Source: an uncultured Erysipelotrichaceae bacterium (GTDB lineage Bacteria > Bacillota_I > Bacilli_A > RFN20 > CAG-826). Taken from it: 48,917 bases of DNA. Every line of letters starts with the position of its first letter. The stretch's first letter is position 1. Made by a program: the position numbers and the translations under genes. Positions 32,350-37,139 of the stretch are shown piece after piece. The DNA lies in the NCBI GenBank assembly GCA_902800355.1, contig CADCEE010000006.1, positions 1-48,917 on the forward strand, given 5' to 3'. A model generated the notes under the pieces. The model was not told the origin of the DNA and searched no databases. It saw nothing but the letters and a program-made list of their open reading frames with translations.

Positions 32350-33312
32350 TTATTGTAATAAATCTATTAAGTCTCTTAATCCGTGGGTGTGTTCGTGCTT
32401 CAACTCTATAGCTTCAGCAATTGGCATGTCGATGATTTGTCCGCCTTTAACACCAATAACTTTACTAGTTGGATCTTCGCTCATAACGATATCCACACTC
32501 TTAGCGCCCATTCTAGCGGCTAACACTCTATCTTCAGCAGAAGGGGAGCCACCTCTTTGTAATCTACCAAGAACTTCGGTTCTTGTATCAAAACCTGTCT
32601 CTTCTTCAACTTTCTTCGCTAATTCATGAATATCGAGAAGGTTTTCACTGACTAAGATAATAGCATGGTTCTTATTTTGTGCCTTCATCTTACGAAGTTT
32701 TCTAAATAAGACTTCTTCTTTTAATGGGTGTTCAACACAAATTACACCTTCAGCACCTTCAGCTAGTCCAGCATATAAGGCAAGGTCACCACAATGACGT
32801 CCCATAACTTCAATCAAGGAACAACGTTGATGACTTCCAGATGTGTCTTTAAGTTTATCGACACATTCACAGATAGTGTTTAAAGCAGTGGAGAATCCAA
32901 TTGTTTGTTCTGTACTTCCAACGTCATTATCGATTGTGCCTGGAATACCAACAACTTTAATACCGTTTTTTGCTAAATCGTTTAATCCTCTAAATGTACC
33001 ATCTCCACCGATACCGACTAATGCATCGATTTCGAAGTCTTGGAGAATATTGGCGGCTCTTTTAGAGACTTTTGGATCTTTGAATTCTGGAAGTCTCGCA
33101 CTTCTAATGATTGTGCCACCTCTATTAATGATGTCTTGAGTAAAGTCTTTTGTAACTTGTTGAATTCTACCTTCAACTAGACCTTTTAAGCCATCATAGA
33201 CCACGTACATATCAACACCACGTGCTAATCCGGCACGAATGACTGCTCTAACACAAGCATTCATCCCTGGAGCGTCACCTCCACTTGTTAAGACAGCGAT
33301 TTTTTTAATCAT
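32350..33312 (-). CDS. pfkA: ATP-dependent 6-phosphofructokinase
   Basis: Key glycolytic enzyme converting fructose-6-phosphate to the 1,6-bisphosphate. The 320-residue protein has LTSGGDAPGMNA near 8-19, GGDGTFRG near 101-108, the catalytic GTIDND near 123-128, EVMGRHCG near 164-171 and RLQRGGSPSAEDR near 248-260. Gly104 following GGDG marks the ATP-dependent form. GAGG lies 8 nt before the ATG. Divergent from dnaB across a region rich in DnaA boxes. Confidence 0.97.
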   Translation of the reverse strand: MIKKIAVLTSGGDAPGMNACVRAVIRAGLARGVDMYVVYDGLKGLVEGRIQQVTKDFTQDIINRGGTIIRSARLPEFKDPKVSKRAANILQDFEIDALVGIGGDGTFRGLNDLAKNGIKVVGIPGTIDNDVGSTEQTIGFSTALNTICECVDKLKDTSGSHQRCSLIEVMGRHCGDLALYAGLAEGAEGVICVEHPLKEEVLFRKLRKMKAQNKNHAIILVSENLLDIHELAKKVEEETGFDTRTEVLGRLQRGGSPSAEDRVLAARMGAKSVDIVMSEDPTSKVIGVKGGQIIDMPIAEAIELKHEHTHGLRDLIDLLQ

Positions 33313-33400: not shown

Positions 33401-33426
33401 TTTTCCACAAAATGCATTGTGGATAA
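33401..33426. promoter_or_regulatory. inverted pair of DnaA boxes (pfkA side)
   Basis: TTTTCCACA at 33401-33409 (one mismatch to TTATCCACA) and a perfect TGTGGATAA at 33418-33426, in opposite orientation, 8 bp apart. The pair lies about 51-76 bp upstream of the predicted pfkA transcription start. Confidence 0.75.
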
Positions 33427-33488
33427 GTGCACTTTATAGGTTAAAAACTTATTTGATTTATACTATGTATAAATCTTTTAGTGGTCGA

Positions 33489-33508
33489 TGTGGATAACTT
33501 TTTCCACA
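33489..33508. promoter_or_regulatory. inverted pair of DnaA boxes (dnaB side)
   Basis: A perfect TGTGGATAA at 33489-33497 and TTTTCCACA at 33500-33508, 2 bp apart in opposite orientation, 22 bp upstream of the dnaB -35 box. An almost pure AT stretch follows at 33509-33534. Confidence 0.75.
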
Positions 33509-33530
33509 TAAAAATTATAAATTTTTTATA

Positions 33531-33560
33531 TTTACAAGCCCTCATTTCGCTTGGCATAAT
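33531..33560 (+). promoter_or_regulatory. dnaB promoter
   Basis: TTTACA at 33531-33536, 18-bp spacer, CATAAT at 33555-33560 preceded by TGG (extended -10). The start near 33567 gives a leader of about 19 nt with AAGGGGAGG. Confidence 0.7.
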
Positions 33561-33585: not shown

Positions 33586-34848
33586 ATGGTTGTTTTATCA
33601 GAACAAGACATGTTTGAAGTCAGAGTTAGTACGCTTTTAGCGGACTATGACCGCGAAACAATCACCAATCTCTATCAGCCTATTATCGGTTATAGTGCTT
33701 TAGCGATTTATTTCTCGTTTTGGAGTGAATCGAAAAACCAAAAGGTCCTTTCTTATTCTTCTCATGAACAGTTTTTAGCAAGGATGAAGATGAATCCAGG
33801 AACTTTCTTAGAAGGAAGAAAACTTTTAGAAGCGGTAGGACTAGTTAAGACTAGATTAGAAAGAATTAAAGATGTCAAAATCTATCACTATGAGTTATTA
33901 GCACCGAGAACCCCACAAGGTTTCTTTGGCGATACCTTGTTATTTGGCTTACTCATTCAAGCAATTGGAGAAAATGACGCTCAAAAAATGAAGCGTGTTT
34001 ATGAAGTTCATCATTTAGAAACAGCGGGTGATGATATTTCTACATCATTTAATGATGTGTTCCACCCAAATTTTGAAGATGCCGCCTTTATGCAAGCTAG
34101 TAAATCAAGTAGCAATATCGCTGGAAGAAATAGGAGCAAAATCGCTACTGAATTTAGCTATGATGACTTTTTTAAATCTTTAAAGAGTGAAAGTCAAATT
34201 TCGGAGACTGCCTTCACTAAGAAAGAGATGAAAGAAATCGAAAGATTATCTACTCTTTACGGTGTCAGTGAAGAAGTGGCGGCTCATGTGGTTGCAAACT
34301 GCTATTCCCCAGAAAAAGAAAAAGGGAAAAGAGTAGACTTACACCAAGTTAATGAAGACCTTAAAAATGAAGTTAGTTATTCTACAGCAAGTAGAAAATC
34401 TAATAGAAGAAGTAAGAACAAAGTTCTTGGTGATGATGGCTTAGCCGCTAAGATCCGCTGGTTTGAAGTTACTAGTCCAAAAGAAGTATTATCTGTTTTA
34501 CAAAATGGTACTAAACCAGCTAGGGCGGATTTAAATATTATTGATAATCTTAGTAAAGATTATAATTTAGCAAATCCCGTGATAAATGTCGTTATTGATT
34601 TTGTTCTCACAATGAACAATAACGTATTCTCAAGATATAGCGCAGAGAAAATTGCTGCCAGTTTATCTAGAGAAGGTATTGAAACCGCAGTGGATGCAAT
34701 GGAATATTTACGAAATAACTATACGAAAGACAAAAAGAAAGGAGTTAAGAAATCACAACCAAAAGTAGAGGAGGGATCTACTAATAAACAAGTAGAAGAA
34801 TCTACTATTGATGACGACGAGTTAATGAATTTCTTCGAGGACCGTTAA
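33586..34848 (+). CDS. dnaB: replication initiation/membrane attachment protein DnaB
   Basis: Firmicutes DnaB (not the helicase) helps DnaI load the replicative helicase at the origin and at restart sites. The 420-residue protein has the DnaD/DnaB layout: N-terminal winged-helix region (about 1-110, with YQPIIGYSALAIYF), a low-complexity linker and a C-terminal DnaD-like domain with IDFVLTMNNN near 343-352 and a charged tail. The frame is open 105 bp upstream into the DnaA boxes, but GGGGAGG before the ATG at 33586 sets the start. One base separates it from dnaI. Confidence 0.9.
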   Translation: MVVLSEQDMFEVRVSTLLADYDRETITNLYQPIIGYSALAIYFSFWSESKNQKVLSYSSHEQFLARMKMNPGTFLEGRKLLEAVGLVKTRLERIKDVKIYHYELLAPRTPQGFFGDTLLFGLLIQAIGENDAQKMKRVYEVHHLETAGDDISTSFNDVFHPNFEDAAFMQASKSSSNIAGRNRSKIATEFSYDDFFKSLKSESQISETAFTKKEMKEIERLSTLYGVSEEVAAHVVANCYSPEKEKGKRVDLHQVNEDLKNEVSYSTASRKSNRRSKNKVLGDDGLAAKIRWFEVTSPKEVLSVLQNGTKPARADLNIIDNLSKDYNLANPVINVVIDFVLTMNNNVFSRYSAEKIAASLSREGIETAVDAMEYLRNNYTKDKKKGVKKSQPKVEEGSTNKQVEESTIDDDELMNFFEDR

Positions 34849-34849
34849 T

Positions 34850-35755
34850 ATGGAAAGATTAAAAGTTGAACAAAACATCACCATCTCTGAGAAGTTTTTA
34901 AGACAGATTGAAGAATCTATTTTTGAAAACGAAATCGCGATGCGTTATTTAAGAAAACTTGGACTTAATGATGAGCAAATTAGAGAGAACGCACCAAAAA
35001 TCTATGATTTTTCAGAAGATGTGAAAAACTGCAAAAATTGTAAAGGATTAAAGTACTGTAATAAATCCCCTAAATTTTTAGTAACCAATATCACTTATGA
35101 AGAAGGAGTGGTCGATAGAAACATCCTTCCTTGTAAGAAATATTTAGAACAAGTGAATTTTAAAAAGAGATTTGCGGTAATTGATTTTGGTGAAGAATTC
35201 TTTGATAACCATATTAAGAGTGATATTTCTAATTTATCCAGTAAAAGTAAGAAAGAGATTCTTAAGAAATATAAAGAATCCGCTTTAGATAAAAAATCTA
35301 ATGCTTGGATCTATATTAAAGGGGACATGTCTACTGGTAAATCTTATTTTGCCGCAACACTTTGTGTTGATGCAGCAAGAAACCAAGCCTATAACTCTAT
35401 TTCCTTTATTGATGTTCCAGAAAGATTTAAAGAATTAACAGACTTAGCGTTCCAAAAGAGTCCTAAGTTTAATGACTTATTAGAAACAATTAAGAATAGC
35501 GAAATGTTAGTCCTTGATGATTTTGGTAATGAATTCAAAAGTGATTTCGTTAGAGAAAATGTTCTATTCCCAATCTTATCTTATAGAGCAAAGAATAAAT
35601 TATTCACTATAATTACAAGTAATTATTCTATGGAAGAAATCTGCACGATGTATCAATCAAACGCAGCGAGCAAGCCAAAAATTGAGCAGATTAAACAACT
35701 ACTCAAATTACTTTGTAAGGAAGAAATTACTTTACCAAGCTTTCTAGCTCAGTAA
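34850..35755 (+). CDS. dnaI: primosomal protein DnaI, helicase loader
   Basis: AAA+ ATPase that loads the replicative helicase. The 301-residue protein has a cysteine-containing N-terminal domain (CKNCKGLKYC near 62-71 and a later CKK), the P-loop KGDMSTGKSYFAA near 160-172, Walker B MLVLDDFGNE near 219-228 and sensor TIITSNYS near 258-265. It directly follows dnaB. Its 3' end overlaps the convergent mutM-coaE gene by 29 bp, without a terminator between them. Confidence 0.95.
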   Translation: MERLKVEQNITISEKFLRQIEESIFENEIAMRYLRKLGLNDEQIRENAPKIYDFSEDVKNCKNCKGLKYCNKSPKFLVTNITYEEGVVDRNILPCKKYLEQVNFKKRFAVIDFGEEFFDNHIKSDISNLSSKSKKEILKKYKESALDKKSNAWIYIKGDMSTGKSYFAATLCVDAARNQAYNSISFIDVPERFKELTDLAFQKSPKFNDLLETIKNSEMLVLDDFGNEFKSDFVRENVLFPILSYRAKNKLFTIITSNYSMEEICTMYQSNAASKPKIEQIKQLLKLLCKEEITLPSFLAQ

Positions 35756-37139
35756 TTATCTTATTAATTTTATTTATAAAGGCGGCCTTTGTGCCGTCAT
35801 TTTTTATGACGTAAGTAGCCTTTAAGATATTTTGGTCTATTTTATTGGTCTTATTTATTTCTTTTAAATATAAAGCTTTGGCTTTGTCTCTACTAGAAAT
35901 GAGTTCATCTTGTTTATCTTTAGATATATCAATAACGATGATGTTATCAAAATATCGATCTAAATTAGATTCAAATAGTAGAGGAACTTCAACCACTCTA
36001 ATTGGAGATTTTGAAGTAGATAAGAAATTGTTAATTTCTTTTTCCACTAAAGGATGAACTATTCTTTCTAGTTTTCTTTTATCTTTTGGATGAATTAATA
36101 GATAATCTCTTAAAACATCTTTATCGACTTGTTTATCTTTGAATTTTAAGCCAAACGCTTTTTCGATTTTGTTAGTTAATTCACTAGTTTTATATAGTTC
36201 ACTTACAACTTTATCAGAAGATAAAACTGGATAGCCTTTTTCTTTAAAAACTTCTGAGGCTGTAGATTTTCCTGATGCAATCTTACCAGTAATAGCAACA
36301 TTAAGTGGTTCACCAACTTTTCTTTGACAACACGGACAGAATGTTGTGCCTCTTCCACCTACTTTAATAAAGCGTAATTCATGCTTATGACATGTTGGGC
36401 AAATTTCTCCAGATTTCCCGTAAACTTTTAATCTAGTTTGGAAGTTTCCGTCGATATCTTTTCCAGGGTGGTAACTTTTAATAGTGGAGCCACCCGATTC
36501 AATAGCTTGTAAGAGAATCTCTTTTGCGTTACTAACAATCTTTTTCCATTCTCCTTCTTTGATTTTATTTGCAGGAGTCAATGGATGAATGTTAGACGCA
36601 AATAAAGTTTCATCTACATAAATATTACCTAAGCCAGTCATTAAGGTTTGATCGAGTAATGTAGTCTTAATTGGCTTTTTAATGTTTTTCACCTTTTTCA
36701 TTAGTGATTTAACATCATCAATATAGAAAGGCTCAGGACCAAGTTTAGAAATCATTTCATCAGATTTATAGGTTGCTTCACTAGATAATTTTAGAATGCC
36801 AAAACATCTAGAATCGTCATAGCAAAGTTTATGTCTGTTATCTAAATGAAATACCACTCTAGCGTATTTAGAATCTTTATCGCTTTCTAATAGTTCATAA
36901 TACTTACCTTCCATCCTTAAATGAGAGAGCATTACTAACTCATTAGTGAGATGAAAAATAAGATATTTACCGATTCGAGAAACATCTAAAAATGTTTGTC
37001 CTTGAAGGTTAGAAATAAATTCCTTAACATCGCCTTCAATTTGGCCCGCTCTTAAAACATCAATCTTTAAAATTTTTCTATTTTTAACGATTGGAATTAA
37101 GACTATTTTAACTGTTTCAACTTCTGGTAATTCTGGCAT
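35727..37139 (-). CDS. mutM-coaE: fused formamidopyrimidine-DNA glycosylase / dephospho-CoA kinase
   Basis: Two full enzymes in one 470-residue frame. Residues 1-275 are MutM/Fpg: catalytic PELPE start, K58 in RIGKYLIF, H-two-turn-helix TGLGNIYVDE near 168-177 and a zinc finger with C247, C250, C268 and C271 (ending CPCCQ). Residues 280-470 are CoaE: P-loop GKIASGKST at 285-293, LSSDK near 306-310, HP near 362 and EVPLLFE at 384-390. The linker is about 5 residues. The two genes are neighbours in Bacilli, so fusion by stop loss is the simple explanation. It removes 8-oxoG from DNA and completes CoA synthesis. Follows polA with a 3-nt gap. Confidence 0.95.
   Translation of the reverse strand: MPELPEVETVKIVLIPIVKNRKILKIDVLRAGQIEGDVKEFISNLQGQTFLDVSRIGKYLIFHLTNELVMLSHLRMEGKYYELLESDKDSKYARVVFHLDNRHKLCYDDSRCFGILKLSSEATYKSDEMISKLGPEPFYIDDVKSLMKKVKNIKKPIKTTLLDQTLMTGLGNIYVDETLFASNIHPLTPANKIKEGEWKKIVSNAKEILLQAIESGGSTIKSYHPGKDIDGNFQTRLKVYGKSGEICPTCHKHELRFIKVGGRGTTFCPCCQRKVGEPLNVAITGKIASGKSTASEVFKEKGYPVLSSDKVVSELYKTSELTNKIEKAFGLKFKDKQVDKDVLRDYLLIHPKDKRKLERIVHPLVEKEINNFLSTSKSPIRVVEVPLLFESNLDRYFDNIIVIDISKDKQDELISSRDKAKALYLKEINKTNKIDQNILKATYVIKNDGTKAAFINKINKIITELESLVK

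Follow-up and report, generated by a model that had tools for sequence, protein, structure and literature searches.

Conserved DnaA boxes in fixed register with the predicted dnaB promoter suggest joint control of initiator and helicase loader in a family of gut Bacilli

The intergenic region between the divergent pfkA and dnaB genes of an uncultured Erysipelotrichaceae bacterium contains two pairs of DnaA boxes that are conserved in related genomes, hold a fixed distance to the predicted dnaB promoter, match in layout the boxes at the dnaA promoter of the same genomes and are restricted to a family of gut (mostly rumen) Bacilli. The best reading of this arrangement is a lineage-specific promoter module through which DnaA would co-regulate dnaB-dnaI with dnaA-dnaN. 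More specifically, the sequence comparisons make it likely that the region is a control region for dnaB-dnaI, in which binding of DnaA would regulate synthesis of the helicase loader in a feedback shared with dnaA.

The window, that is the whole stretch of 48,917 nucleotides that was analysed, is contig C6 of a 1.14-Mb genome that is 98% complete and whose nearest named relatives are metagenome-derived Bacilli of the rumen and other gut habitats; most of the genomes compared are metagenome assemblies. The pfkA gene (32350-33312, minus strand) encodes a 6-phosphofructokinase that scores over the cut-off of NCBIfam model NF002872. Divergent from it, dnaB (33586-34848, plus strand) encodes a helicase loader or primosomal protein of the B. 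subtilis DnaB type (420 aa), and dnaI (34850-35755, plus strand), directly 3' of dnaB, encodes a helicase loader ATPase of 301 aa. The dnaB product matches NCBIfam NF052657 (E=1.2e-46) under the curated cut-off of that model and Pfam DnaB_2 over its cut-off, and the dnaI product matches NCBIfam NF006505 (E=3.6e-28), also under the cut-off; despite these scores, both identities are unambiguous when judged by their best hits. The start codons are ATG at 33312 (minus strand) for pfkA and ATG at 33586 (plus strand) for dnaB, with a 273-bp gap between them. The dnaB frame can be extended to a GTG at 33481, but this start was rejected, because the longer frame would cross boxes 3 and 4 and the promoter and because a good ribosome-binding site accompanies the ATG at 33586. 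An Rfam search of the window gave no matches. A single frame of 470 aa (35727-37139) that overlaps the end of dnaI encodes a fusion of MutM (formamidopyrimidine-DNA glycosylase) with CoaE (dephospho-CoA kinase).

The four DnaA boxes that a first-pass annotation had placed in this gap are all present. Box 1 (33401-33409, plus strand) reads TTTTCCACA, one mismatch from TTATCCACA, and is invariant in the eight closest genomes; it is faced by box 2 (33418-33426, minus strand), a perfect TTATCCACA, at 17 bp from start to start. Box 3 (33489-33497, minus strand) is again a perfect TTATCCACA whose start precedes the predicted -35 element of dnaB by 42 bp; box 4 (33500-33508, plus strand), another TTTTCCACA, starts 31 bp upstream of the same element and is kept by only part of the relatives. 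The boxes lie 89-114 bp from the pfkA ATG and 78-97 bp from the dnaB ATG; the distances to gene starts given in the first-pass annotation (51-76 bp for pfkA and 59-78 bp for dnaB) correspond to the predicted transcription starts (~33350 and ~33567) and not to the start codons. The placement had also been described as nearly mirror-symmetric, yet pair 1 is arranged '> <' with an 8-bp gap and pair 2 '< >' with a 2-bp gap, which is no true mirror.

This four-box cluster is far beyond chance. Among 20,000 dinucleotide shuffles of the 273-bp gap none reached two perfect boxes, and among 20,000 none reached four boxes with at most one mismatch (mean 0.09). The genome-wide count that had been proposed as a check put the number of perfect boxes at 22 in 1.14 Mb; a reversed control pattern occurs 6 times. 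Outside dnaA/oriC and dnaB, nearly all perfect boxes in the window genome are single and inside genes, and the facing pair pattern (TTNTCCACA, 6-12 bp, TGTGGANAA) occurs at two sites only, dnaA/oriC and dnaB.

Conservation of the boxes in relatives, on which the first-pass annotation had staked its proposal, is strong. Two or more boxes at no more than one mismatch are kept in 54 of 55 distinct pfkA-dnaB gaps (0.03 in shuffles), at least one perfect box in 48 (0.07 in shuffles) and at least two perfect boxes in 39 (0 in shuffles), and the 17-bp facing pair is found 39 times in these 55 regions. Of the 36 box columns, 35 show no change across the eight closest genomes, as compared with about 20 in shifted layouts. 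When the boxes are mapped on a DnaB tree of the family, at least two lie 40-200 nt upstream of dnaB in 54 of the 55 rows of the clade that includes the window. Outside this clade the boxes are patchy, the pattern on the tree takes a minimum of 9 changes, and several genera of the family are without any boxes at dnaB. No box cluster was found in 70 dnaB upstream regions from other families of the order and class. The module therefore looks like an invention of this lineage, absent as it is from the dnaB upstream regions sampled in other families of Bacilli.

The boxes also hold a fixed position relative to the dnaB promoter, all promoters here being consensus predictions. The predicted sigma-A promoter of dnaB (33531-33560, plus strand) reads TTTACA-18-CATAAT, with a predicted transcription start at ~33567, and in many relatives the corresponding position is occupied by TTGAAA-17/18-(C/G/A)ATAAT. 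Box 3 and the predicted -35 element are spaced, start to start, by exactly 42 bp, or four helical turns, in 41 of 61 distinct upstream regions, a count made with no filter on promoter score. Loci inside one genus are not independent, and at the level of genera 42 bp is the commonest spacing in 12 of 19. When boxes were paired with the promoters of other loci as a control, the modal count averaged 5 and never exceeded 13. Identity between genera averages 44% over the 33 bp that separate box 3 from the -35 element, and the neighbouring spacings, from box 2 to box 3 and from the -10 element to the ATG, are variable. Forward boxes, taken as box 4 where it is present, start 31 bp before the -35 element in 19 regions and 32 bp before it in 4. 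Box 4 is separated from the -35 element by an A+T-rich stretch (33509-33530, plus strand), a possible UP element, which is conserved in the closest genomes; between genera its sequence diverges and its length is constant. Relative to the predicted dnaB start, the centre of box 3 is at about -73 and that of box 4 at about -62. Class I activators that touch RNA polymerase from upstream use centres near these same positions, -62 and -73. The region has three attributes of a DnaA-regulated promoter, namely consensus boxes above chance, their retention in relatives and a fixed position with respect to the predicted core promoter. In 7 of the 19 genera 42 bp is not the commonest spacing, and several genera are boxless at dnaB, which makes the module dispensable over evolution.

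The same layout recurs at the dnaA promoter/oriC of these genomes. A reverse box there starts three turns (30-32 bp) before the -35 element in 10 of 15 loci, and still further from the promoter is a facing pair whose spacing is mostly 18-19 bp. Thus box positions are whole helical turns from the -35 element at both genes, given 42 and 31 bp at dnaB and 30-32 bp at dnaA. The two arrangements differ in that at dnaB the facing pair is spaced by 17 rather than 18 bp, the critical box has one more helical turn between it and the -35 element, and an extra palindrome lies between the box pairs. At locus L150, the region upstream of dnaA towards rpmH contains a separate inverted repeat (GAATAAGC-AAA-GCTTATTC) whose arms change symmetrically in relatives (GAATAAAC/GTTTATTC and GAATGAGC/GCTCATTC); it is possibly a leader structure of divergent genes, and an Rfam search of L150 and L310 gave no matches. 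In one genome of the same genus (G014), two full-length dnaA-like genes are found on different contigs (L144 and L153), both with upstream box clusters and with products 53% and 71% identical to DnaA of the window genome, which possibly reflects contamination of the assembly.

The palindrome between pair 1 and pair 2 at dnaB (GATTTATACTATGTATAAATC, 33455-33475) was overlooked in the first-pass annotation. In 46 of 47 loci the inverted repeat at this place is stronger than in shuffles (p<=0.05), its centre is ~23.5 bp before box 3 in most loci, and its arms change symmetrically, from TATAC/GTATA to TATAT/ATATA, from TTTAT/ATAAA to TTTAC/GTAAA and from ATTTAT to TTTTAT. Because it is upstream of both predicted transcription starts, it is more likely to be a DNA element than a leader-RNA hairpin. 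The palindrome is present as a single copy in the window genome and was rejected as a regulon motif, as the two looser matches (L178 and L180) are inside genes. It is part of the module yet is not accounted for by DnaA.

The boxes belong to dnaB. Their distribution bears directly on the alternative that control is bidirectional, with DnaA at pair 1 acting on pfkA and DnaA at pair 2 acting on dnaB, so that glycolysis is coupled to initiation as the first-pass annotation had suggested. In keeping with this alternative, the divergent pfkA-dnaB gene pair is widespread in the family, pair 1 of the closest genomes falls between about -50 and -76 relative to the predicted start of pfkA, and a spacing of 47-50 bp to that start recurs in several genera. 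The boxes, however, do not follow pfkA: 29 pfkA loci (50-75% identity) without an adjoining dnaB show no boxes in the up to 350 nt of upstream sequence available, and where the two genes are separated (L035, L094, L122, L123, L161 and L163) the boxes remain near dnaB. Supporting the same conclusion, box 3 is 85 +/- 6 nt from the dnaB start codon as against 179 +/- 24 nt from that of pfkA, and the distance from pair 1 to the predicted pfkA start floats, with a standard deviation of 27 bp over the 30 better-scoring predictions, whereas the dnaB spacing shows almost no variation. Coupling of DnaA to glycolysis through pfkA is thus improbable, and pfkA is probably a bystander outside the module.

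It has also been suggested that such a cluster titrates DnaA, and a titration or nucleotide-switch site, like the DnaA-box clusters of B. subtilis or datA/DARS of E. coli, could be upstream of dnaB by accident. A cluster of boxes of high-affinity type away from oriC would suit such a site, and dnaB is far from dnaA in two well-assembled relatives; yet a titration site has no need of an exact 42-bp spacing to a promoter, most genomes have only 2-4 boxes, and the cluster is always with dnaB. Pure titration is unlikely in view of the fixed register with the -35 element. There is very little likelihood that the region is part of the replication origin or a second origin, although the box layout resembles that at the dnaA promoter and an A+T-rich stretch adjoins box 4. 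In the window genome dnaA is on another contig with box clusters on both of its sides (C1:16936-18586), the composition skew of the window tracks gene strand without a sustained shift at the boxes, and a second origin was rejected on these grounds, the region having neither the location nor the skew of oriC. In the two well-assembled relatives the genes are far apart, dnaA being at 204 kb and dnaB at 818 kb in G116 (a single contig of 1.06 Mb), and at 322 kb and 829 kb, respectively, on one contig of G058. That the 9-mers are sites for a protein other than DnaA is just as hard to credit, since their sequence is that of the DnaA box consensus and dnaA itself is flanked by such boxes in these genomes; the conserved palindrome does point to at least one more factor or structure possibly acting here.

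Regulation of dnaB-dnaI by DnaA, as the first-pass annotation had proposed, gains support from the conservation of the boxes, the fixed promoter spacing and the dnaA-like layout. DnaA bound at box 3, and at box 4 where present, would be on the same face of the DNA as RNA polymerase, and at whole helical turns from the -35 element it would probably touch the polymerase. Some seven turns further from the promoter, boxes 1 and 2 form a facing pair that is a probable anchor for a DnaA oligomer or for a loop with box 3. Because the dnaB boxes are arranged like those of the dnaA promoter, the initiator DnaA probably controls dnaA and dnaB together, which would place initiator and helicase loader under one DnaA-dependent feedback. 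DnaA of B. subtilis represses dnaA-dnaN (PMC12112137), and by this precedent we lean towards feedback repression, although activation of dnaB is equally compatible with the upstream position of the boxes. No homologue of YabA (PF06156) was found in the 98% complete window genome, in a search whose control recovered YabA of B. subtilis and Lactococcus lactis; a tie between this absence and the module is speculation.

The arrangement is reminiscent of several known systems without coinciding with any of them. As in the autoregulation of dnaA-dnaN in B. subtilis and E. coli, boxes lie upstream of a replication-initiation operon, here in the layout of the organism's own dnaA promoter, but what they would control is the helicase loader dnaB-dnaI. 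In B. subtilis, too, promoters outside oriC (sda, ywlC and others) are preceded by box clusters; there the yqeG/sda, ywlC and ywcI/vpr upstream regions are among those most strongly bound by DnaA in vitro and dnaB is not in the list of the 20 strongest regions (PMC4447404), and dnaB of the other Bacilli families sampled also differs from that of the window's family in having no box cluster. DnaA of E. coli prefers box pairs, described as 2 or 3 bp apart (PMC11317965), and such pairs control replication and nucleotide genes; unlike these double boxes, both pairs at dnaB are inverted, and their gaps are 8 bp (pair 1) and 2 bp (pair 2). The dnaB gene of Caulobacter crescentus has predicted upstream DnaA boxes and is a member of the DnaA regulon (PMC8203912), but it encodes the replicative helicase rather than the loader of Bacilli, and in a different phylum.

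Helicase loading is the step that follows opening of the origin, and how the supply of loader is matched to initiator activity is poorly known. A box that in a dozen genera keeps a distance of four helical turns to the -35 element, together with a dnaA-like layout, would offer a precise model for DnaA as a transcription factor. It is possible, if tentative, that the loader operon has received a second copy of the dnaA box architecture, forming a single DnaA-phased circuit that replaces absent regulators such as YabA, with the palindrome as the point of entry for a second regulator. The module suggests that the DnaA regulon has been rewired within the Bacilli.
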